From NCBI RefSeq assembly GCF_011682065.1, contig NZ_VUYU01000001.1, positions 310,001 to 374,000 of the forward strand: DNA of 64,000 nucleotides, given 5' to 3'. Source of the DNA: Massilia rubra (GTDB lineage Bacteria > Pseudomonadota > Gammaproteobacteria > Burkholderiales > Burkholderiaceae_D). Under the pieces are notes generated by a model that saw nothing but the letters and a program-made list of their open reading frames with translations, ran no database searches and had not been told where the DNA came from. The translations under genes and the position numbers were made by a program. Shown here piece after piece: positions 5,609 to 23,165 of this stretch (its first letter is position 1; each line of letters opens with the position of its first letter).

Positions 5609-6076
5609 ATGAAGTCACTGTTCAAGCACCTGATGTTCGCGCTGTTTGCCATCACCCTGACCGGCGCCGCCAGCGCGCAGGACGCCCCCAAGCGCGGCAC
5701 GGCCGACGAAGCGGTGGCCATGGTCAAGAAGGCCAGCGCCTACCTTAACGACAATGGCCGCGACAAGGCGATCGCCGCCTTCAACGATCCCAAGGGAGAG
5801 TTCATCAAGGGTGACTTGTACGTCTTCATGTTCACCTTCGACGGCACCGCCCTCGCGCACGGGCAGAATGCCAAGATGGTCGGCAAGAACCTGATCGACC
5901 TCAAGGCCGGCGAGGTGTTTCCGATCCGTGAATTCATCAAGATCGCCAAAAGCCCCGCGGGGACCGGCTGGTTCGGCTACAAGTGGCCCAATTCGATCAC
6001 CAAGGCCATGGAAGAGAAAAATACCTACATCGAGCGCAATGGCGATGTGCTCATTGGCGTGGGTACTTATAAATAG
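5609..6076 (+). CDS. Secreted single-Cache-domain protein
   Basis: 155 residues with a clear signal peptide (residues 1-23, ending AASAQ). The mature part is one Cache-type sensor domain: an N-terminal helix (TADEAVAMVKKASAYL), the segment KGEFIKGDLYVFMFTFDGT, then GKNLIDLKAGEVF and a final YKWPNS strand. Such stand-alone Cache proteins lie in the periplasm and probably bind small carboxylates or similar ligands; no signalling domain is attached. A good ribosome site, AAGGAG, sits 7 bases before the ATG. No operon partner is certain, as the next gene starts 176 bases on. Confidence 0.8.
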   Translation: MKSLFKHLMFALFAITLTGAASAQDAPKRGTADEAVAMVKKASAYLNDNGRDKAIAAFNDPKGEFIKGDLYVFMFTFDGTALAHGQNAKMVGKNLIDLKAGEVFPIREFIKIAKSPAGTGWFGYKWPNSITKAMEEKNTYIERNGDVLIGVGTYK

Positions 6077-6252: not shown

Positions 6253-7752
6253 ATGGCGGCAAGCGACATGGCACACCGATGGGAAACGCCCGGCAGCGTA
6301 TGGCTGGAAGACGAACACACGGCGCAGTTTGAACTGGCGTCGAGCGAGGGACTTGGCCGCATCGAGCGCCAGGCGCAGTCGCGCGGGCGCCTCCCCGATA
6401 TCGCGCACCTGCTGGGCGCTTCGCTGCCGCTGTCCTGCGACTGCTCGCCCATCTATCCCGAAGGTTTCGCCTTCTGCCCCACCTGCGGCGCGCCGCTCGA
6501 CAAACTGGCCGGACGCGCCAAGACGTCGCCCGACTGGTGGGGGCCATGGTCCGACCATCTGCTGCCGCGCCATGTGCCGCATGGCCTGAACGTGACCGCG
6601 CTGGCGCTGGGCGAGAACCTGGAAGAACGCCCGGCCGCGCCGGCCCCCGGCCGCCCCGACCTCAATATGCCGGCCCCGCCCAATGCGCACTGCGTGTTCG
6701 CGGCCGGCGCCTTCGGTTTTCCCACCCAGCGCCTGATCGCGCTGGCCCACGCCCGCAACGTGCTGCAGTACTGGGACCCGCTCGGCCAGGCCTGGCACGT
6801 CATGGCGCCCGAAGACAACGCGTCCGACCTGACCTTCAGCGTCCCGGCCGCGTCCTACGCCTGGCTGCCGGCAAGCGATCCGCGGCGCGGCGAAGTGGCG
6901 CTGGTGCCGACCGACCGTGGCCTGCGCCGCCTGTTCATCAATCCGGTCAGCGAGACCTATCGCACCGAAGTCGTGTTCGACGGCCAGCTCGCCAGCGCCC
7001 CGGGCGCCATGCGCCGCCATGTGGCCTGCCTGGTCCACGGCGAGGCCGGCACGGTCCTGTGGAGCGCGCACAGCGACATGAGTAATGAAACCGTCTACGC
7101 CTGCGACGCACCGGCCGGCCAGTGGGCGCGCCCGGTCGGCTACGACGGCAAGCTGTTCTGGCTGCACGCCCAGGGCCAGCTGGTATGGCAGCCGGGCGCG
7201 CCGCCGCAATGGATCGCCTGGCCGGCCGGCTGGTCGCCGCGCCTGCAGTTCGGCGGCCCCACCCAAAGCCGCGACGGCCGCCTGTGGCTGATCGGCCATG
7301 ACGGCCAGGCCTATTCTTTCCTCGAACTGGGCAAGCTGGCCGGCCAGCGCGAAGCCTTGAGCGGCGCGCGCCTCGGTTTCGCCAGCCTGCTGTTCCGGCG
7401 CGGCCACGCGGTGGTGGACGAACCGTGGGGCCTGGAGCACGTGGAAGATCCGCACGACGACGACGCCATGGTGCTGCCGCTGCTGCGCGGCTTCAATAAC
7501 AACCGCAGCCAGCCCAGTGGCCTGGTGCTGCGCTTCCACCAGTACACCGGCATGGCCGAAGACGCGCTGGCCGGACGCATCATCCCACGCACCACGTTCG
7601 AATGGATCGGCAAGCGCAACGTCATCCTCGACGACATCGCGCGCCTGGCGCATCCGCTCGAGTGCGTGCCCTTCGTGTACGACAACTGCCTGTGGCTGCA
7701 CCATCCCGACTGGAACCAGGTGCGCGGCTGGCGCCTGGACGCACTGCCGTGA
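6253..7752 (+). CDS. Zinc-ribbon protein of the tubulin-like cassette
   Basis: 499 residues, no signal peptide or membrane segment. Cys62, Cys64, Cys75 and Cys78 form a C-x-C...C-x2-C zinc-ribbon-like site. The C-terminal 370 residues contain recurring strand-rich Trp/Gly segments (VLWSAHSD, GKLFWLHAQGQLVWQP, GRLWLIGHDGQ), which suggests a beta-propeller. No catalytic motif is seen. It is the first gene of a five-gene same-strand cassette, and the next gene starts inside its stop codon (GTGA), so the two are translationally coupled. Ribosome sites are weak for both ATG 6253 and ATG 6268. The family is unknown to me; a scaffold or adaptor role is inference. Confidence 0.7.
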   Translation: MAASDMAHRWETPGSVWLEDEHTAQFELASSEGLGRIERQAQSRGRLPDIAHLLGASLPLSCDCSPIYPEGFAFCPTCGAPLDKLAGRAKTSPDWWGPWSDHLLPRHVPHGLNVTALALGENLEERPAAPAPGRPDLNMPAPPNAHCVFAAGAFGFPTQRLIALAHARNVLQYWDPLGQAWHVMAPEDNASDLTFSVPAASYAWLPASDPRRGEVALVPTDRGLRRLFINPVSETYRTEVVFDGQLASAPGAMRRHVACLVHGEAGTVLWSAHSDMSNETVYACDAPAGQWARPVGYDGKLFWLHAQGQLVWQPGAPPQWIAWPAGWSPRLQFGGPTQSRDGRLWLIGHDGQAYSFLELGKLAGQREALSGARLGFASLLFRRGHAVVDEPWGLEHVEDPHDDDAMVLPLLRGFNNNRSQPSGLVLRFHQYTGMAEDALAGRIIPRTTFEWIGKRNVILDDIARLAHPLECVPFVYDNCLWLHHPDWNQVRGWRLDALP

Positions 7753-9248
7753 CCGGCGCGCTGTCGCGCTACGCGTGCATTCCCGCCAGCGTTGCCCTGC
7801 TGTGCGCGAGCGTTCCCGCATTGGCCGCCTCGCACGTATTCCTGATCCAGAATTCCGGCTGGATGGAGCCGTTCTATACCGACCCGGCCTCGCCCTTCAA
7901 GCCGCTGGTGGCCGAGATCATCATGGCCGCCACCGGCCCGGGCGACCCGATGGTGCTGGCCGCCTTTAACCAGAGCCTGCCCGGCGCGCCCTCGCCCAGG
8001 GCGCTGCTCTCGCTCAAGGTCGACCCGGTGCCGACGCGGCGCGAGGTGGTCAAGGCGCTGGCCGCGCTCGAGGTCGCGCACAAGCCGGGTGGCACGGCGC
8101 TGGCCGACACCGACCTCAATGAAGCCGTCGGTTCGGCCATCGGCACGGCGCTCGGCGGCAAGCCGGGCCTGGTGTGGCTGGTCACGAACAACCGCAATAG
8201 CCCGAACAACGACCAGGCCACGGCGCTGCGCAACCGCGATTTTTACCAGTTGATTCACCGTGGCGACGCGATCAGCAAGGCGCTCGCGTTCCCGTTGCAA
8301 ATGCCGGTGCGCGGCGCGCAGTACCGCGCCAATGGGCTGATGGTGTACGTGTTCGCGGTGGGCGCGCAGGGCGCGCGCGAGCTCGATGCGCTGCTGCTGT
8401 CGGGCCGCCTGCAACGCGTCATCACCGAACCGGCCGCGCGCCTGAAACCGCTCGACCGCGACACGCTGCGCCTGGTGCCGCGCAAGGTCAGCGATGCGCC
8501 GGGCGTGGCGTTTTCGATGGCGCCCGGCGGCGTGCTGCACGCCGACGTGGATGCCGGCACGCGCGCCCCGGCCGCAAAAATCGAGTGGAACCTGGAGAAC
8601 ACCATCTACCCCTACACCATCGCCAGCGCCACTCTCGCTGCGCGTTCGGTGCTGGGCGGCGAAAACCGCGCCATCGAACTGGCCAGCACCCAGGTCAGCA
8701 AGCTCGCACCGGGCAAGAGCGCGCCGCTGGCGTCGACCATGCAGCTGCCGGTGACGCAATTGCCGGGCACGTGGTCGCTCAAGGCCGTCACCTCGGCCGG
8801 CTCGGCCTACGTGCTGCCAGGGCGGATCGAACTGCAACTGAGCGAGCAGCGGCTGGAGCTGTCGCAGGATTTCCGCCAGCGCATGGCGACCTTGTTCCCG
8901 GGCGACCCGCTGCCGGATATCTTTACGCCGCCGGCCCAGATCAAGGGCTCGAGCGCCGCGCTGCCGATCGAAGTGCGGGTCCATTACGGCGTCGGCCCGC
9001 TGCTGGCCGCCATCGGCGCGGCGCTGGCGTTGCTGGGCGCCGCCGCTTGGGCCATGCTGGCCATGGCGCGCCCGCGCAAGGCCTACGTGACGGTGGAGGA
9101 TGAATTGCGTACCATGCAGGCGCGCGCCGGCACCGTGCAGCCGATTTACGACAAGGCGGGCAACAAGGTGGCGCAACTGAAAACCACGCTGTTCGGCCAT
9201 CAACTGATCGACCTGCGCGAAGGCGCGCAGGTACGCTTGGGCCGCTAA
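7749..9248 (+). CDS. Secreted vWA-like protein with C-terminal membrane anchor
   Basis: 499 residues if the GTG overlapping the previous stop codon is used; this start gives a proper signal peptide (about 1-27, ending PALAA), whereas longer versions do not. The next segment, HVFLIQNSGWM, sits where a vWA domain has its DxSxS metal site, but the acidic residue is replaced (QNSGW), so metal binding is doubtful. TALADTDLNEAVG and GLVWLVTNN follow in the order expected of a vWA fold. A single membrane helix lies at about residues 414-440 (LLAAIGAALALLG), leaving a 60-residue cytoplasmic tail. Topology: large periplasmic domain, C-terminus inside. It probably contacts the cassette's cytoplasmic proteins. 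Confidence 0.7.
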   Translation: MTGALSRYACIPASVALLCASVPALAASHVFLIQNSGWMEPFYTDPASPFKPLVAEIIMAATGPGDPMVLAAFNQSLPGAPSPRALLSLKVDPVPTRREVVKALAALEVAHKPGGTALADTDLNEAVGSAIGTALGGKPGLVWLVTNNRNSPNNDQATALRNRDFYQLIHRGDAISKALAFPLQMPVRGAQYRANGLMVYVFAVGAQGARELDALLLSGRLQRVITEPAARLKPLDRDTLRLVPRKVSDAPGVAFSMAPGGVLHADVDAGTRAPAAKIEWNLENTIYPYTIASATLAARSVLGGENRAIELASTQVSKLAPGKSAPLASTMQLPVTQLPGTWSLKAVTSAGSAYVLPGRIELQLSEQRLELSQDFRQRMATLFPGDPLPDIFTPPAQIKGSSAALPIEVRVHYGVGPLLAAIGAALALLGAAAWAMLAMARPRKAYVTVEDELRTMQARAGTVQPIYDKAGNKVAQLKTTLFGHQLIDLREGAQVRLGR

Positions 9249-9274
9249 ACTTTTACTCTATCAGGACGATCTTC

Positions 9275-9727
9275 ATGCAAAATCCCCAGGCTCCCGCAAG
9301 CGCACCCGCCGATCCCGGCTTCAAGCTTCCCGGCGACAGCAGCGCGCCTGCCGGACAGGCCGGCAAGGACGCCGACGGCGCCTTGAGCACGCAGGCGCCG
9401 ATCGAAGTGGCGCCCGTGCTTGGCGCGCCCGCAACCGATACCGCCTCGCGCGACCTGGCCATCGGCGGCGCCGTGTTCCTGGTGCTGCTGATCGTGTACT
9501 TTTTCGTGCGTAACGCGTATGTGCACCACCTGGTGGTCAAGCGCGTGGCGCCGTCGACTGCCGGCAGCGCCGGCTGGCTGCTGTTCGTCGGCCTGTCGTT
9601 CGTGAGCGCGGCGGCGGTGCTGGCGGTCATCAACGCGAGTAAATTCCTGACGCTGGCGATCACCGCGCCGCTGGTGGGGATTGGCCTGGTCGCCCTCGGC
9701 GCGGCCCTGTTCGTGGGCCGGCGCTGA
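9275..9727 (+). CDS. Small three-helix membrane protein of the cassette
   Basis: 150 residues. The N-terminal 58 residues are Ala/Pro/Gly-rich and look disordered. Three hydrophobic segments follow: FLVLLIVYFFV, WLLFVGLSFVSAAAVLAVI and LTLAITAPLVGIGLVALGA. No family is recognised. It lies 26 bases after the vWA-like gene and 38 before the tubulin-like gene, same strand, so it is probably co-transcribed and part of a membrane complex. Confidence 0.7.
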   Translation: MQNPQAPASAPADPGFKLPGDSSAPAGQAGKDADGALSTQAPIEVAPVLGAPATDTASRDLAIGGAVFLVLLIVYFFVRNAYVHHLVVKRVAPSTAGSAGWLLFVGLSFVSAAAVLAVINASKFLTLAITAPLVGIGLVALGAALFVGRR

Positions 9728-9765
9728 TCCGCCCCCGCCTCCGACGACCCAATGATTGAAAGACA

Positions 9766-12700
9766 ATGACAATGGCAGAATTTCCCAACACCGGCAGCGC
9801 AGCGGCCAAGGCCGAACTGAAGGTCGACCTGCGGCCCACGCTGTTCATCGGCGCCGGCGGCACCGGCATGGAAGTGATGCTGCGGATTCGCCGCCGCATC
9901 CTGTCGGAGGTCTGGAACCGCCACAACCCGACCCGCGTCGAATCGATCGCGCAGTTCCCGGTCGCGCGCTTCCTGCACTTCGACCTCGATAACAACGCCA
10001 TCATCGACGAAGGAAAATCGCAGCGCACCGACCCGTGGTACGAGCTGGTCAAGCTGGGCGACGACGAGCGCCTGGTCGAGTCGCTCGACCTGCCCCAGTA
10101 TCACGAGTCCGACGACAGCCTGGCGCGCTTTCCGCTGATCGAAAACTGGATGCCGCTGCGGCCTAAAAAACTGCGCTCGCTCGGGATCGATCCGTCCAAG
10201 GGCGCGGGCCAGATCCGCGCGCTGGCGCGCCTGTACCTGTTCGATAAATATCCCAAGCTGCGCGGACGCATCAAGGGTGCCCTCAATTTCTTGAGCAGCA
10301 ACGCCGGCAACGAGCGCAAGGAAACCTACCAGCGCCTGGGGCTCCAGGTCGATACGTCCAAGTTCCGCATCGTCGTCATCGCCTCGTGCGCGGGCGGCAC
10401 GGGCGCCGGCAGCGCCATCGACCTGGGCTGGATTTCCAAGGCCATCGCGCGCCAGGAAGTGTCCGACAACCAGGTCGACCTGGTCCTGTTCATGCCGTCC
10501 GGTTTCGCCAAGGCCAACAAGGAGCGCACCGAGGCCAACGCCTACGCCACCCTGATGGAACTCGAGACGACCATGCGCGACATGAACGCGCAAGTCCGTT
10601 GGGCCGAACCGGACAACCTGGTCGGCAAGGGCGCGCCCTTCGACGATGTGTATTTCGTCGATACCGCCAACCTGGCCAACAAGGCCACCAGCGACGTCAA
10701 GGATGTCTACCAGATGGTGGCCGACACCCTGTTCGAAGACTTCGCGTCGGCCGATTTTGCCAACCGCAAGCGCTCGATCGCGGTCAACCAACAGCAGCAC
10801 AAGCTCGGGCCGTTCAACCCGCGCGTGCCGGAACAGCGCTTCGGCGACATGCGCCTGTCGTACTCCAAGGTGTATTCGGCCTTCGGCCAGGCGGTGCTCG
10901 ACACCCAGCAAAGCCTGCGCGACGATATCCGCGCCTACGAACTGGCCGCGCTGATGGTCAAGGCCTTCTTCGGCCTGGCGGGCAGCGACGGCGTGGCGGC
11001 GCGCCGCGCGGGCGATCAGGAACGCGACGTCTTCATGCGCGAGCAGATGTCGATGAGCGAGCATCCGTTCGACGAATTCCCCGACTTCAAAAAGGGCACG
11101 GTCGACCTGACCCCGTTCCAGGAATACGCGCTGACCGACCAGCTGCTGATGGACAAGGACCAGCGCTCGCTGCTGGAACGGGTCGAGAGCAAGGTGCAGC
11201 TGGAGATGGACCGCATCATGGCCTCGTACGACCTGGGCGTGTGGCGCGAAAAAGTGGCCGAGCTGCTGCCGCACCTGGAGCGCGACGCCATCCGCGAAGC
11301 CGGCGCCACCGCCGAAACGAGCGAAGACCGCATCAAGCGCCATACTTCCGAGCTGACCACGCGCCTCAAGGGCCGCGCGCGCACCCAGTTGTACGCGCTG
11401 CTGGACGATCGCAAGCAGGGCGGCCTGGAATTCGTGCTCTCGCTGCTGGAACAGATCAAGGCGCGCCTGCTGCAGCGCGACCTGGGCAACGCCGAACGCA
11501 ATGGCAAGCGCTATCGCGACATCCGCGACGCGCTGCGCACGCGCCAGGTCGAGGAGTCGCTCGGTAACCTGTCGCAGGCGGCCAGCCGCCTGTTCGGCAA
11601 GGATGCGCAGGCGCGCGAAGTAATGGCCCACCTCAAGCGCGACATTGCCGACTACCTGCGTTTCCACCTGCTGGCGGTGGCGGCGGGCCAGTCGATCGAG
11701 GTCATGCGCACCATGTCATCCTGGCTGGGCGACCCGCAAAGCACCGATGAACAGGGGCAGCCCGTGTGGAGCGGCATCGCCGGCGAATTCCAGGAGGGAC
11801 GCCGCTGCGTGCAGGCCATGCTCGGCGCGGTCGACCAGCGCATCGACCAGCTGCGCGCCGACGCGCGCCACGAACACGCGACCTACATCAAGCTGGCCAG
11901 CGACATCCTGCCCGACCCGGTGGCACTGAGCGGCGACATCCACGCCTGGAGCGAGGAAGTGTTGCTCGAATTCGGCGGCTCGGCGCGCCTGTTCCCGCAA
12001 CTGGGCGACGAAAAACTGCGCGCCAGCCTGCTGCTCAAACTGTTCCGCCGCGCCCAGACCCAGCTCAGCGTGGAAGAACTGGACGACGCCGAACCCGTCG
12101 ATCCCCTGCTCGAACGCCTCGGCGCCATGTCCCCGCAGGAGCGCGCGCGCATTTTCGGCGAGTGGCTCAAAAGCGCCATGCCGTGGATGAACGCGCGCTT
12201 TTCCGCCGAGTTCACGCCCAGGGCCGACCAGTTCAAGTGCTTCATCGGCGTGGGCGACGTCAATGCCTGGCGCCTGATGGAGACCGAAATTCGCGCCGCC
12301 GTGCCGGCCGGTTCCTTCCATGGCGACCTGGTTTCGGTGGTCAACACCGGCATTAGCGGCAAGGCGGTGTGCTACATCGAGCTGTCGGGCTTTCCGATGA
12401 CGGTGCTGCGCGGCCTGCCGACCTGGCGCACCTCGTACCAGATCGAAAACCCCAAGATTCCGACCCACCTGCATTTCGACGCGACGCGCTTTCGCCATCC
12501 GATTTCGCCGTCGATGGATGAACTGAACCGCCTGGCCGACGATTACGAGTGGTTCTTGCAGGCCAACGCGCTTGGCGTGATCCGCCGCAAGAGCGATCTG
12601 GCCGACCGCGAAGCGTCGTTCCAGCCACGCGGGCAGTACCTGTTCGAAGTCGAACCGGGTTCCGGCGAGTGGCTCCAGATCGGCAACGAGTTCGCGATCC

Positions 12701-13386
12701 GCTCCAACGGCCTGCCGCCGTACTACCGCGAGCAGGTGATCGCCGCCGTGCAGCAGCGCCTGGCCAGGCTGGGACCGAACCAGTTCACCATGCTGGCGAC
12801 CCTGATGCGCCACTTCCAGCAGCGCGTGTATGAACCGAAGCTCGAAGTCGATGAAACCGGCGCCCAGCTGCCGTCGCCATCGCTGCCGAACATCACCGCG
12901 CGCCGCCTGTACGAAGAGTGGTTCAAGCGCGCACGCGCCATGAATCCGGCGCTGGCGCAGCGCGATATCGACGCCGCCGGCGCTTCGCTGGCCGAGTGGA
13001 CCGAACCGGTGCCCGGTTCGGCCAGCGACGCCTACGCGTGGGAAGTGGAAAAGTCGGTCGACAAGCGCGCCATTCGCGCGGCCTTCCTGGCCAGCGAGCC
13101 CGAGGCGGCGCAGGCGCTGGCCGCGCGCGCGCTGGCGCCGCCGCCGCAGGCAGCGGGCGCGCGCTATAAACTGTTCCTCAACGGCGCGCAGCAGGGACCG
13201 TTTTCGATTGACGAGATCGCGCTGCGCATCGCTCGCGCGGAAGCCGGGCCGCAGACCAAGGTCTGGAACATGCAGTGGAATCCCAAGGCCGACAAGTGGA
13301 AGAGCGCGGGCGAACTGCCGGAGCTGGCCTCCTTGTTCGACGATGCCATCCCGGACCCCGACAACGACATACCCGATCCGGACTGA
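9766..13386 (+). CDS. Large tubulin-like (Tubulin_2-type) protein with C-terminal GYF_2 domain
   Basis: 1206 residues, cytoplasmic. The N-terminal 330 residues resemble the tubulin/FtsZ GTPase fold: TLFIGAGGTGMEV (GAGGTG at 29-34) matches the first nucleotide loop, and CAGGTGAGSAIDLG (GGTGAGS at 210-216) matches the tubulin signature GGGTG(T/S)G. Residues 400-760 are helix-rich with long charged stretches (DDRKQGGLEFVLSLLEQI). At about 1132-1190 a GYF_2-type domain (YKLFLNGAQQGPFSIDEI...W) follows an Ala/Pro linker. GYF_2 domains generally bind proline-rich peptides, and the next gene encodes a long proline-rich stretch. GTP-dependent polymer formation is possible but inferred. Start: ATG 9766; ATG 9772 is also possible. 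Confidence 0.8.
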   Translation: MTMAEFPNTGSAAAKAELKVDLRPTLFIGAGGTGMEVMLRIRRRILSEVWNRHNPTRVESIAQFPVARFLHFDLDNNAIIDEGKSQRTDPWYELVKLGDDERLVESLDLPQYHESDDSLARFPLIENWMPLRPKKLRSLGIDPSKGAGQIRALARLYLFDKYPKLRGRIKGALNFLSSNAGNERKETYQRLGLQVDTSKFRIVVIASCAGGTGAGSAIDLGWISKAIARQEVSDNQVDLVLFMPSGFAKANKERTEANAYATLMELETTMRDMNAQVRWAEPDNLVGKGAPFDDVYFVDTANLANKATSDVKDVYQMVADTLFEDFASADFANRKRSIAVNQQQHKLGPFNPRVPEQRFGDMRLSYSKVYSAFGQAVLDTQQSLRDDIRAYELAALMVKAFFGLAGSDGVAARRAGDQERDVFMREQMSMSEHPFDEFPDFKKGTVDLTPFQEYALTDQLLMDKDQRSLLERVESKVQLEMDRIMASYDLGVWREKVAELLPHLERDAIREAGATAETSEDRIKRHTSELTTRLKGRARTQLYALLDDRKQGGLEFVLSLLEQIKARLLQRDLGNAERNGKRYRDIRDALRTRQVEESLGNLSQAASRLFGKDAQAREVMAHLKRDIADYLRFHLLAVAAGQSIEVMRTMSSWLGDPQSTDEQGQPVWSGIAGEFQEGRRCVQAMLGAVDQRIDQLRADARHEHATYIKLASDILPDPVALSGDIHAWSEEVLLEFGGSARLFPQLGDEKLRASLLLKLFRRAQTQLSVEELDDAEPVDPLLERLGAMSPQERARIFGEWLKSAMPWMNARFSAEFTPRADQFKCFIGVGDVNAWRLMETEIRAAVPAGSFHGDLVSVVNTGISGKAVCYIELSGFPMTVLRGLPTWRTSYQIENPKIPTHLHFDATRFRHPISPSMDELNRLADDYEWFLQANALGVIRRKSDLADREASFQPRGQYLFEVEPGSGEWLQIGNEFAIRSNGLPPYYREQVIAAVQQRLARLGPNQFTMLATLMRHFQQRVYEPKLEVDETGAQLPSPSLPNITARRLYEEWFKRARAMNPALAQRDIDAAGASLAEWTEPVPGSASDAYAWEVEKSVDKRAIRAAFLASEPEAAQALAARALAPPPQAAGARYKLFLNGAQQGPFSIDEIALRIARAEAGPQTKVWNMQWNPKADKWKSAGELPELASLFDDAIPDPDNDIPDPD

Positions 13387-13390
13387 CGCC

Positions 13391-14317
13391 ATGAACCTGC
13401 AAGACCAAGTGATCTACCGCTGCATCCACGCCGCCTGCGCGCGCCCGATGCCGCGCCGGGTCGATTTTTGCCCGTACTGCGGCACCGCCCAGCACGAGGG
13501 CGCGTTGCGGCCGGCCTCCGCCGCCGTGAGCGAGCCTGTGCCCGCGCCCGCGCCGCCCGTGGCGGCCTACGTCGCGCCAGCGGTCGAAGCGCCGGCGTTC
13601 GTGCAGGAAGTGCCGATTGCACCGGCCAGGCCCGGCCCCGCCGCCGCTCCGCCTCCGCCGCCGCCGATCCCTGGTCCGGCCGCCGCCGCCGTCCCTCCGG
13701 CCCCGCCCAAAGCCGTGCCGCGCGCCGCACCCTCCGGGCCGGCGCTGCGCAAACCGATCCGCCTGCGTTACTGGCTGATGGCGCTCGCCGTCCTGGCCGG
13801 CATCTGGTTCATGGCCAGGCCCGAGCCGAAGAAGTTCGAGGCGCGCATCGAGCAGGCGATTTTGCAGGCCGAGGATTGCAATATCAAGGAGGCCAGGGCC
13901 GAACTGGACGCGCTCAGGCGCGACAAGGCCAGCGAGGCCCAGCTTGACCGCCTGCAGTCGTCGATCGGCGCGGCCGCCAGTGCCTGCGAGCGCAAACGCA
14001 CGCGCGGCGCCAAGGCCAAGAGCGCACCCAAACGCGACACGCCGGCCGTGCCGGTCAAACCCGAGGCGCCGGTGGTGGAACGGCCTGTGATCGAACGCCC
14101 GGCCGGCCAGTCGGCGCGCAACCTGATCGCCGAAGCGGAGCGTGAACTGGCGCAGGGCAATTACAAGGCCGCCTCCGACAAGCTGGAAACCTGCATCGCC
14201 ATGGTCGACGGCAGCCGCGAATGCGCCGCCTTCAAAAAGCACGCCGACCGCCTGCTCACGGACATGCGCCATTGCGTGGGGGCGGGACGCGAGTGGATTA
14301 ACGACCGCTGCATGTAA
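13391..14317 (+). CDS. Zinc-ribbon, proline-rich, single-pass membrane protein
   Basis: 308 residues from ATG 13391, 4 bases after the tubulin-like gene. Cys11, Cys16, Cys27 and Cys30 form a zinc ribbon. Residues 50-112 are very rich in Pro and Ala, including a run of six prolines. A membrane helix lies at 127-142 (WLMALAVLAGIWF), followed by a charged helical domain with a TPR-like repeat (AEAERELAQGNYKAASDKL) and four cysteines near the end. Expected topology: ribbon and proline-rich arm in the cytoplasm, C-terminal domain in the periplasm. The proline arm is a plausible ligand for the GYF_2 domain of the preceding protein. It ends the cassette. Confidence 0.75.
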   Translation: MNLQDQVIYRCIHAACARPMPRRVDFCPYCGTAQHEGALRPASAAVSEPVPAPAPPVAAYVAPAVEAPAFVQEVPIAPARPGPAAAPPPPPPIPGPAAAAVPPAPPKAVPRAAPSGPALRKPIRLRYWLMALAVLAGIWFMARPEPKKFEARIEQAILQAEDCNIKEARAELDALRRDKASEAQLDRLQSSIGAAASACERKRTRGAKAKSAPKRDTPAVPVKPEAPVVERPVIERPAGQSARNLIAEAERELAQGNYKAASDKLETCIAMVDGSRECAAFKKHADRLLTDMRHCVGAGREWINDRCM

Positions 14318-14446
14318 GTACAACTCAGGTGCGCAGCGCGTGGCAACTCGTCAGACATGTATCTTTTTTGTAAAGATTGCCAAAGTTCTTGCAGAAATGT
14401 TGCTTCTTGGTCTACGATCACGTTTTCCACTTCACCGGAGACGTCG

Positions 14447-14854
14447 ATGGCGCTCAGCAGAATTTTCCCATCGCTGGCGCTGGCCTGCGGTGCAGCATCG
14501 GTGCAAGCTGCCAGCTTCGATTGCGTCACGCCCGAGTTTCCCGACAAATCGGTATCGATCCAGGCCGCGCGCCGCGTCGACGACCAGGTGCGCGCGTGGG
14601 AAAAATGCTATGCCCAGTTCCGCGCGCGCCAGTGGAGCATCGATGCCGCGCGCCAGAACGATGAAGTGGCGGCCGGCGTGGAACGCTGGGTGACGCTCGC
14701 GCGTACGCCAGGGGCGGCGGGCGGTGCCAACGCCGCCAGCGCGCGGGCGCGCGGCGCCGATGCGCCGGCCAGGGTCGCACGCGGCAAACGCGATAACCAG
14801 GTCATGCGCTTCGTTGAACAGGTCCCGGTCGAATACGCGGTCGAACTGCGCTGA
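14447..14854 (+). CDS. Hypothetical secreted protein
   Basis: 135 residues from ATG 14447, preceded by CCGGAGA. A signal peptide ends near VQAAS (about residue 22). The mature part has two cysteines (in FDCVTPEF and EKCYAQF), which could pair, and a helix (AARRVDDQVRAWEKCYAQF). The C-terminal third is Ala/Arg-rich. I do not recognise a family. It lies 129 bases after the tubulin-like cassette on the same strand and may or may not belong to it. It converges on the molybdopterin oxidoreductase gene. Confidence 0.6.
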   Translation: MALSRIFPSLALACGAASVQAASFDCVTPEFPDKSVSIQAARRVDDQVRAWEKCYAQFRARQWSIDAARQNDEVAAGVERWVTLARTPGAAGGANAASARARGADAPARVARGKRDNQVMRFVEQVPVEYAVELR

Positions 14855-20733: not shown

Positions 20734-21600
20734 ATGCTCGAACTGCGCAATGTGGTCAAAACATTCGGTAACAAGGTGCGCGCGGTCGATGCCGTGAGCC
20801 TGTCGCTGGAACACGGCGTGGTCGGCCTGATCGGCCACAATGGCGCCGGCAAGACCACCCTGATGCAGATGATCGCCACGCTCACGCGCCCGAGCAGCGG
20901 CCAGATCCTGTTCGACGGCGTCGATATCGTGGCGCGCCCGCAGCACATCCGGCGCCGGCTCGGCTACCTGCCGCAGGACTTCGGCGTGTACCCGAATCTG
21001 TCGGCCCTCGAATTCATGCAGTATTTCGCCGCCCTCAAAGGCGTGCGCGATCCGGGCCGCGTCAAGCACCTGCTCGAACTGGTCAACCTGCACGAACAGG
21101 CCAGGCGCCCTGCGGCCTCGTTCTCGGGCGGCATGCGGCGCCGCCTCGGCATCGCCCAGGCGCTGCTGAACGACCCCGACATCCTGGTCGTCGACGAGCC
21201 CACCGCCGGCCTCGATCCCGAGGAACGCCTGCGCTTTCGCAACCTGCTGGGCGAACTCGGATCGACCAAGCTGGTGATCATGTCGACCCACATCGTGTCC
21301 GACGTCGAAACCATCGCCGGCCGGCTGGCCACCATGGACGCGGGCAAGCTGATCGCCTGCGAAACGCCGCGCACCCTGCTCGACCAGGCGCGCGGGCGCA
21401 TCTGGTCGGCCAATGTCGGCGCGGCCGACTACGAACTGCTGCGCGCCAGGGTGAATGTGCTGCACGCGCAGCGCGAGGGCGAGCAGGTGGCGCTGCGCAT
21501 CGTGCACGGCGCCTCGCCGTGCGCCGGCGCGCGACTGGCCGAACCGACCCTGGAAGAAGCGCTGATCGCCCAGCGCCACGCCTTGAAGGAGGCGGCGTGA
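20734..21600 (+). CDS. ABC transporter ATP-binding protein
   Basis: 288 residues from ATG 20734, chosen because AGGAAA lies just before it; ATG 20719 would add five residues. Walker A GHNGAGKTT, Q-loop region YLPQDFG, signature FSGGMRRRLGIAQAL, Walker B ILVVDEPTAGLDP and the switch His (STHIVSD) are all intact. It belongs to the class of drug/antibiotic or ABC-2 type exporters. The next gene encodes its permease and overlaps the stop codon. Confidence 0.9.
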   Translation: MLELRNVVKTFGNKVRAVDAVSLSLEHGVVGLIGHNGAGKTTLMQMIATLTRPSSGQILFDGVDIVARPQHIRRRLGYLPQDFGVYPNLSALEFMQYFAALKGVRDPGRVKHLLELVNLHEQARRPAASFSGGMRRRLGIAQALLNDPDILVVDEPTAGLDPEERLRFRNLLGELGSTKLVIMSTHIVSDVETIAGRLATMDAGKLIACETPRTLLDQARGRIWSANVGAADYELLRARVNVLHAQREGEQVALRIVHGASPCAGARLAEPTLEEALIAQRHALKEAA

Positions 21601-23165
21601 TGCTGTCGATGCTGCACCTGCTGCGCGCGCTGGCGCTCAACGAGGTACGCCTGCGCATGCGGCGCACCTCGACCATGGTGGCGCTGCTGGCGGTGGTGGC
21701 GGTCAGCTGGGCGATGATCGCCGACCCCGCCAGCGGCAATGCACTGCTGGTGTTTAACAAGGCGCGCGTGCTGTACACCAGTTCCGCGCTGGCATTGGGC
21801 AGCGCCACCCTGGGCGCCTTGCTGTTCGGCCTTGGCGGTTTTTACCTGGTGCGCGGGCGCATGAGCGAAGACCTGCGCAGCGGCATCGGCGGCGTGATCG
21901 GCGCCACGCCGGTCGGCAGCGCGCTGTTCCTGGCCGGGCGCTGGCTGGGCGCCTGCGCCTACCTCGGCGCGCTGGTGGCCGCCTTCATTCTCACCATGCT
22001 GGTGCTGCACGGGCTGCGCGGCGACGGTCCGCTCGAACCGCTGGTCTACCTGCAAACCTACGTGCTGCTGATGGCGCCGATGGTGCTGTTCGCGGCCAGT
22101 TGCGCGATCCTGTTCGACAGCTGGGCGCCGCTGATGGGCAAGGGCGGGGACGTGCTGTTCTTCATGCTGTGGATAGCGCAGCTGGTGTTGATGACGCAAA
22201 GCGGCAGCAGCGAGGTCCCGGCGCTGATGGTGTTCGATTTTTCGGGGCTGGCGGTGGCGGTGGCGGCGGTGCACGGGTTTGTGAGCGGCACTGATTTCTC
22301 GATTGGGTCGAGCCCTTTCGACGCCGCGCTGGCGCCGGTGTCGCTGCCGCCGCTGCTGTGGAGCGCGCGCATGATCGGGCTGCGCGCGGCGTCGGCCGTG
22401 CTGGCACTGGTGCCGCTGCTGCCGGCCTGGTGGCTGTTCCACCGCTATTCGCCGGACCGGGTCAAGCCCGGGCGCGCCCGCTTGCGCCGCACCCCACTGG
22501 CGCTGGTCAATGCCGCACTGCGCCCCTTGGCCGTGCTGGCCAATCCCTTGCTGGCGCTGGCCGCGCGCGTGCCGGGGCTGGCCGGCCAGGTGCTGGCCGA
22601 CCTCGCGCTGACCTTCATCATCGCCCCTGCCGCGCTGCTGGCGTTTGTCCTGTGTGCGGGCGCCGCCGTATTCGCACCGATGAACGCCCTGCCGGCGCTG
22701 CTGATGGCGGCGGTGGCGTCGTGGGGCATCCTGGTGGGCGACATCAGTACCCGCGACTACGCGGGGGCCACCGAAGACCTGAGCGGCACGGTGAGCGGCG
22801 GGGTGGCCTTGCGCTACCTGCGCCAGTATGCCGCCAGCGTGCTGCTTGGCTTGATGTTCATGGGGCCGGTGGCGCTGCGCTGGGCCTTCACGCAGCCGCT
22901 GCGGGCACTGGCGCTGGTGGTGGGCGTGGCCAGCCTGTCGGCGTTGGCCAGCCTGTTTGGCCGCTGCGGCAGGACGGCGCGCCTGTTCCTGTCGCTGTTC
23001 CTGTTCGGGTTCTACGTCGCGCTCAACGCCACCGAGGCGCCGAGGATCGACGCGGTGGGCTTCAATGGCGCCGCCAACCTGCACTCGGTGGCGCTGTACG
23101 CGCTGGTGGGCGCGCTGGCGCTGGCCGGCGGCTACCTGTACAACGCCGGCCGCCTGGAACGCTAG
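21600..23165 (+). CDS. ABC-2 type transporter permease
   Basis: 521 residues. The ATG overlaps the stop of the ATPase gene (TGATG), with GGAGGCG upstream. About 12 hydrophobic segments are visible, in two sets of six, for example TMVALLAVVAVSWAMIA, ALALGSATLGALLFGLGG and TFIIAPAALLAFVLC. The first six resemble an ABC-2 half and the second six look like a duplication. The substrate is unknown. The stop lies inside the 13-base palindrome CTAGGAGTCCTAG shared with the convergent gene. Confidence 0.85.
   Translation: MLSMLHLLRALALNEVRLRMRRTSTMVALLAVVAVSWAMIADPASGNALLVFNKARVLYTSSALALGSATLGALLFGLGGFYLVRGRMSEDLRSGIGGVIGATPVGSALFLAGRWLGACAYLGALVAAFILTMLVLHGLRGDGPLEPLVYLQTYVLLMAPMVLFAASCAILFDSWAPLMGKGGDVLFFMLWIAQLVLMTQSGSSEVPALMVFDFSGLAVAVAAVHGFVSGTDFSIGSSPFDAALAPVSLPPLLWSARMIGLRAASAVLALVPLLPAWWLFHRYSPDRVKPGRARLRRTPLALVNAALRPLAVLANPLLALAARVPGLAGQVLADLALTFIIAPAALLAFVLCAGAAVFAPMNALPALLMAAVASWGILVGDISTRDYAGATEDLSGTVSGGVALRYLRQYAASVLLGLMFMGPVALRWAFTQPLRALALVVGVASLSALASLFGRCGRTARLFLSLFLFGFYVALNATEAPRIDAVGFNGAANLHSVALYALVGALALAGGYLYNAGRLER

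Follow-up and report, generated by a model that had tools for sequence, protein, structure and literature searches.

Tubulin-like proteins encoded beside von Willebrand factor A (vWA) proteins have been described before in bacteria. In 2010 a genome-based study (Makarova and Koonin, PMC2875224) predicted FtsZl1 as a family, together with vWA and envelope partners; the authors proposed a vWA-linked membrane-remodelling system, and a reviewer proposed transport or signalling. The article states that the part up to helix H7 could not be placed for FtsZl1, that the metal-ion-dependent adhesion site (MIDAS) is intact in the majority but not all of the vWA partners, and that OmpA-like, kinase or P-loop GTPase partners are frequent without being defining. 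It left open the membrane contact of FtsZl1, the retention of T6-H7 and polymerisation. Tubulin/vWA clusters of other phyla are placed among conflict systems in a later study (Kaur et al., 2020, PMC7159879). Here we analyse a stretch of 64,000 nucleotides from Massilia rubra (contig NZ_VUYU01000001.1; hereafter the window, numbered from its first base), in which five genes, all on the forward strand, fill positions 6253-14317 and encode a tubulin-like protein, a vWA protein and three companions. A sequence-only reading of these genes had called them a candidate undescribed membrane-linked GTPase system. The word 'undescribed' is only partly right, since PMC2875224 and PMC7159879 cover FtsZl1 with its vWA and envelope partners and the other clusters, respectively.

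The cassette resembles FtsZl1 as presented in PMC2875224 in its N-terminal FtsZ-like domain, long helical region, vWA partner and membrane proteins, and in spanning the envelope in Gram-negative bacteria. It differs in that the vWA metal site, reported there as intact in the majority, is replaced, and in having neither a kinase nor a P-loop GTPase partner; no Pfam match to an OmpA-like, kinase or P-loop GTPase family was found in the five proteins or in the product of the neighbouring gene at 5609-6076. A GYF domain, an IPDPD tail and a zinc-ribbon/proline anchor are also present here and are not mentioned in the accessible text of that article. What is new in this variant is thus the GYF domain, the tandem IPDPD tail, the zinc-ribbon/proline anchor, the altered vWA site and a stretch directly behind H7 that is free of acidic residues in its tentative register. 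A literature search, with subscription journals mostly outside its scope, returned no paper on this combination of parts. A Polaromonas member mentioned in PMC2875224 may be of the variant type.

The five genes are kept together. All of them occur in one order and on one strand at 60 of 63 related loci, a count that includes L062 with broken frames, L005 with its fifth gene cut and the partly masked L064; the other three loci (L010, L034 and L046) run off contig ends. Among 300 genomes of the window's order, Tubulin_2 was found in seven and the vWA profile in five, all within those seven, and among 150 genomes of an order in another class both were found in the same four. These surveys bear out the expectation that the genes travel together, with one of those four (L127) as the exception. 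The ratio of non-synonymous to synonymous substitution rates (dN/dS), calculated against five relatives, was 0.09-0.17 for gene 4 and 0.18-0.66 for the other four genes (gene 1, 0.20-0.37; gene 2, 0.20-0.33; gene 5, 0.25-0.61). Every value lies below 1, and all five genes are under purifying selection. Because gene order is conserved and dN/dS is low, the cassette is more than a chance cluster of genes, an explanation that we consider ruled out. Long antisense open reading frames (ORFs) were set aside as true genes, since it is the sense frames that are conserved as proteins.

Gene 4 (9766..13386) encodes the tubulin-like protein of the Tubulin_2/FtsZl1 type, which has 1206 residues and, judged from its sequence, neither a signal peptide nor a transmembrane (TM) segment. 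Residues 26-378 match Tubulin_2 (PF13809; E 3.1e-49, 168.5 bits against a cut-off of 27), and all 24 aligned members carry this match. The two tubulin/FtsZ-type nucleotide loops noted in the sequence-only reading are as stated there and intact: T1 is GAGGTG at residues 29-34 (9850..9867), and T4 is GGTGAGS at residues 210-216 (10393..10413). The same reading had proposed a tubulin fold, and the Pfam match and the predicted structure agree with it. A second fold search with the model returned proteins identified by title as CetZ, tubulin, microtubule or FtsZ in 50 of the 50 matches listed, with Z scores of 12.0-12.9 and mostly over residues 22 to ∼331. The model therefore supports a tubulin fold that aligns with FtsZ, tubulin and CetZ through H7. 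Global alignment to FtsZ with hhalign failed, and the placement of H7 rests on the fold alignment because local hhalign spanned the T3-T4 region only (E 0.005-0.02, probability 2-7%). Unlike FtsZ, tubulin and CetZ, gene 4 has long insertions, a helical C-terminal region (model helices at residues 519-547, 553-606, 612-654 and 670-701) and a GYF domain; its sequence similarity to them is very low, and its candidate T7 lacks an acidic residue.

This last difference bears on nucleotide hydrolysis. A block of the form KRSxAVNQxQHK follows the predicted H7, and VNQ[QA]QHK is found in 63 of 63 full-length homologues. The candidate T7 region, in a tentative register and with a predicted local distance difference test score (pLDDT) of the model below 50, covers residues 331-346 (10756..10803), ends in AVNQQQHK and contains no Asp or Glu; in the same tentative register, residues 331-355 as a whole contain neither. 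The Tubulin_2 proteins of loci L093, L095, L096 and L124 carry an acidic aligned stretch (for example MENAENGD). The sequence suggests that GTP hydrolysis is slow or absent, which would in turn favour a GTP-stabilised scaffold over a treadmilling filament, and the label 'GTPase' may be too strong because of this non-acidic stretch in its tentative register. A dynamic FtsZ-like filament, acting in division or cell shape and treadmilling by GTP hydrolysis, would suit the tubulin/FtsZ fold and the intact T1 and T4 loops. However, a canonical FtsZ is encoded elsewhere in the same genome, most of the surveyed genomes lack the cassette and the candidate T7 region has no acidic residue, and we regard such a filament as very improbable.

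A feature overlooked in the sequence-only reading is a GYF_2 domain at residues 1139-1187 of the gene 4 product (13180..13326; PF14237, E 1.8e-7, 31.2 bits against a cut-off of 25.8). It is present in all 24 aligned members and in L099 of another class. GYF domains are a class that binds proline-rich peptides, as in the Smy2 complex. The sequence profile of gene 4 matches the GYF domain of GltJ (AgmX; structure 7z3c) from Myxococcus gliding motility with E 7.3e-6, and Foldseek with the gene 4 model also returned GYF domains, including 7z3c. GltJ has a zinc ribbon and an envelope role, and a zinc ribbon with a TM anchor is found in the cassette as well. The arrangement differs in that here the tubulin-like protein carries the GYF domain, with the ribbon placed on a separate protein.

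The C-terminal tail of the tubulin-like protein, AIPDPDNDIPDPD (13345..13383), is a further conserved element. In 57 of 63 full-length homologues the final 30 residues hold at least two copies of [IVL]PDP; a further homologue has a single copy, and the five with none are of the Rhodoferax type and end in PPPL-type sequences. Elsewhere [IVL]PDP occurs 12 times in 75,150 residues. Tails in L099, L125 and L126, from another class, have acidic repeats of a related kind, and those of L127 and L121 do not. IPDPD was also seen inside insertions of the gene 1 product in L023, L039 and L061 (3 of 23 aligned rows), hinting at a binding partner common to gene 1 and the gene 4 tail.

The candidate docking site for the GYF domain lies in the product of gene 5 (13391..14317, 308 residues), which had been described beforehand as a zinc-ribbon/proline/membrane protein and has this architecture, followed by a periplasmic helical part. 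The ribbon cysteines C11, C16, C27 and C30 (13421..13480) are invariant in 24 of 24 aligned rows, and the ribbon pattern occurs in 62 of 64 gene 5 proteins, the exceptions being L062 (broken) and L064 (masked). The linker that follows (13481..13765) has a median proline content of 24% across 62 proteins versus a background of 6.8%, and a juxtamembrane motif, P-x(1-3)-[RK]-x-P-[IV], is present in 54 of 64. Low-proline L031 and L057 were set aside, as their linkers of 13 and 23 residues probably reflect a misplaced TM helix. The single TM helix, assigned from the hydrophobic stretch and the alignment, is encoded at 13772..13819, and the part beyond it varies, being helical in betaproteobacteria and made of PEGA domains in L099. 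Five Tubulin_2 proteins from clusters of other types (L093, L095, L096, L097 and L100) showed no GYF match with E of 0.05 or lower, and the gene 5 profile had no match in these loci either, so that in this small sample the GYF domain and the gene 5 anchor go together. A profile search of PDB sequences with gene 5 gave mostly short cytochrome b562 rows. Matches of gene 5 to Csm2 in PADLOC (E 0.007 and 0.04) are weak and were taken as chance helical similarity.

Gene 2 (7749..9248, 499 residues) had been read as a secreted vWA-like protein with an anchor, and its sequence and model (pLDDT 85.1) are in agreement: they predict a vWA domain, a beta-sandwich, one TM helix (residues 416-440, 8994..9068) and a cytosolic beta tail. 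None of the 24 members has a match to a Pfam vWA family. The top row of the second fold search was the vWA domain of CLCA1 (Z 10.3, root-mean-square deviation 2.7, 130 residues aligned), and the first seven rows are vWA proteins, judged in part by their titles; later rows were mixed. Foldseek with the whole model placed beta-sandwich and channel chains, not vWA domains, ahead, and the vWA alignment, run as a profile against PDB sequences, returned no matches. By predicted fold the vWA reading is right despite the absence of a Pfam vWA match. At the place of the metal motif the protein reads QNSGWM (residues 34-39, 7848..7865). Across 71 homologues this place is QNSGWM in 68 and QDSGWM in two, with L010 cut there; the MIDAS sequence DxSxS was found in 0 of 71, and a TNN motif in 71 of 71. 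Judged from the sequences, the metal site is altered in a conserved way, with the signature Q[N/D]SGWM...TNN.

A vWA fold with a TM helix and a cytosolic tail, together with the apparent absence of acidic residues behind H7, would also suit a GTP switch that does not polymerise and serves a periplasmic sensor or transporter; ligand sensing would then fall to the vWA protein, and the tubulin-like protein would pass on its nucleotide state. The reviewer's text in PMC2875224 leans the same way. Against it, Pfam showed no transporter subunit or signalling domain in the five proteins, and a tubulin fold usually means polymers. We consider this switch a rather unlikely account.

The explanation that we prefer, with a confidence that falls a little short of an even chance, is an FtsZl1-type envelope complex in which a GTP-binding, cytosolic tubulin-like scaffold is docked on envelope anchors. 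The GYF domain of gene 4 would dock on the gene 5 linker with its many prolines; the tubulin domain, by binding GTP and associating with itself, would cluster the gene 5 anchors in the inner membrane, and through the membrane these clusters would influence the vWA protein. This protein may bind a periplasmic protein or a wall ligand without a classical metal site, and in relatives an outer-envelope partner would complete the span. A membrane-linked assembly with cytosolic and periplasmic components had already been proposed for the cassette, and the sequences and the gene 2 model and fold are consistent with it. A bolder version, which we think distinctly doubtful, is that a hydrolysis-poor, GTP-stabilised relative of tubulin holds on to an anchor spanning the envelope by means of a GYF-proline clutch, with parts akin to those of focal adhesions in gliding bacteria arranged anew about a tubulin, and that the vWA protein without the usual metal site reads the wall or pulls on it. 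No bacterial counterpart of a link of this kind between tubulin and envelope is known to us.

Several results weigh against the docked scaffold. The AlphaFold2 model of gene 4, built from 24 sequences, is poor (mean pLDDT 64.4, predicted template modelling score 0.39), and Foldseek with this model found tubulins weakly, with a best E of 0.05 and none at 0.001. Linkers in L027, L030, L039 and L055 have less than 11% proline, which weakens docking by proline content; PP[LP]-type motifs adjoining the TM helix are kept in L030, L039 and L055 and not in L027. Genes 1 and 5 diverge fast, sharing 22-26% identity with the Rhodoferax-type rows. The searches detected neither gene 3 nor gene 5 in L127, where there is room for them, and for L125 and L126 a gene 5 located past the contig end is possible. 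Finally, no outer-envelope partner was identified in the window.

With respect to the points that PMC2875224 left open, the variant offers concrete handles. The GYF domain and the proline linker form a candidate docking pair, the predicted H7 leads into a conserved non-acidic stretch, the C-terminal tail is conserved, and all 70 homologues with a readable motif share the same change at the vWA site. Each of these is testable in culturable Massilia relatives.

The distribution of Tubulin_2 and its neighbours elsewhere bears on a different proposal, that of a conflict or programmed-death system in which infection or damage would prompt the tubulin-like protein to assemble and so set off an effector. 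Tubulin_2 is otherwise rare, being found in 24 of 120 relatives, 5 of 321 genomes of a class sample and 8 of 398 of a phylum sample. The tallies keep below-cut-off matches in G046 (L087) among the relatives, G387 in the class sample and G842 in the phylum sample; the relatives, order, class and phylum surveys count the own genome, and the survey of the order in another class counts its centre genome. The gene profiles of the locus search leave out L001, L062 and L065-L088, which are short or broken. Effectors do occur in other Tubulin_2 clusters. In L093:1617-12263 the gene is part of a row that also contains genes for CHAT, caspase, DUF4384 and OmpA proteins, and in L096:6388-16460 the Tubulin_2 protein has a STAND-type NTPase match near its C-terminus, with a TPR-S sensor protein before the gene and a TIR protein after it. 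Relatives of genes 3 and 4 on plasmid p2 of Azospirillum sp. TSA2s (L121:3439-19057) lie beside three caspase-family genes, several OmpA genes, DUF4384 genes and a small zinc-ribbon/PEGA gene; there, the gene 1 and vWA profiles had no match at E <1, and a zinc ribbon is the sole feature that the protein in the place of gene 1 shares with it. The literature search returned no paper on a caspase/DUF4384/tubulin set. In L097 the neighbour of Tubulin_2 has ordinary Pfam VWA matches.

PMC7159879, which puts tubulin clusters among conflict systems, also speaks for this proposal; in its GAP1-N2 systems a tubulin protein adjoins membrane-linked vWA proteins, as here. The cassette differs from these in that a DO-GTPase, GAP1 and an FNIII-repeat protein were not found by Pfam in the five genes; a P-loop GTPase likewise had no Pfam match in the five proteins, and no dedicated GAP1 model was sought. 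Apart from the weak Csm2 similarity, Pfam and PADLOC showed no effector domain in the five proteins, and no variable effector accompanies the five genes as they recur from locus to locus. Unlike defence genes, which are typically patchy, the cassette is present in 16 of 16 same-genus genomes listed by the survey of relatives and in the own genome, the 76 genomes without a match being unsorted by kinship. We therefore consider a conflict system unlikely. A separate row on a plasmid of Meiothermus taiwanensis (L123:1-12822) begins with vWA and Tubulin_2 and continues with one hypothetical gene and then brxL; upstream of it are an ATP-binding protein and a HEPN gene of the Swt1 type.

The positions given for the five ORFs in the sequence-only reading stand, and the starts of two of them do not. 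Gene 2 most likely starts at GTG 7749, where GTGA overlaps the upstream stop and the resulting N-terminus resembles a signal peptide; gene 5 is likely to start at ATG 13391, four bases past the stop of the tubulin-like gene. Gene 1 (6253..7752, 499 residues) encodes a fast-evolving protein that is soluble by sequence. Its N-terminal zinc ribbon (Zn_Ribbon_1, E 0.013, under the family cut-off) holds in the branch of the window and fails as a conserved feature, the cysteines being lost in Rhodoferax-type rows. A profile search of PDB sequences with gene 1 gave one weak antibody row only. Gene 3 (9275..9727, 150 residues), expected to be a small three-helix protein, has three hydrophobic helices that we read from the sequence as TM helices. 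Near its start is an F-x-[LIV]-P motif, here FKLP (9320-9331), found in 63 of 66 homologues; the exceptions are L059 and L060, with an overlong start, and the broken L062. An LPXTG-type anchor match on gene 3 (E 0.0058) was set aside, because the host is a Gram-negative bacterium and the matched stretch takes in a TM helix.

The cassette lies in a genome of 7.57 Mb. Directly upstream, 5609-6076 encodes a secreted Cache-domain protein that is upstream in some relatives only, and directly downstream, 14357-14854 encodes a small secreted-looking protein with no Pfam match and with relatives in eight loci. A lipoprotein-like glycine-zipper gene occurs in 11 loci (L023, L030, L039, L045, L054, L055, L059, L060, L061, L089 and L090) and also in L092, its glycine-zipper matches being below the curated Pfam cut-offs; L099 has a 17kDa_Anti_2 match just above the cut-off and a PG_binding_1 match below its own. 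Together with the PEGA domains of gene 5 in L099, these candidate envelope partners of relatives speak for the docked scaffold. In Massilia sp. H-1 (L062) the broken frames run across the cassette and the adjoining oxidoreductase gene, a pattern more suggestive of errors in the sequence than of a lost system. Further along the window, two long ORFs overlap on opposite strands, one at 21429-23084 on the minus strand, with no Pfam match at 1e-5, and the other at 21519-23165 on the plus strand.

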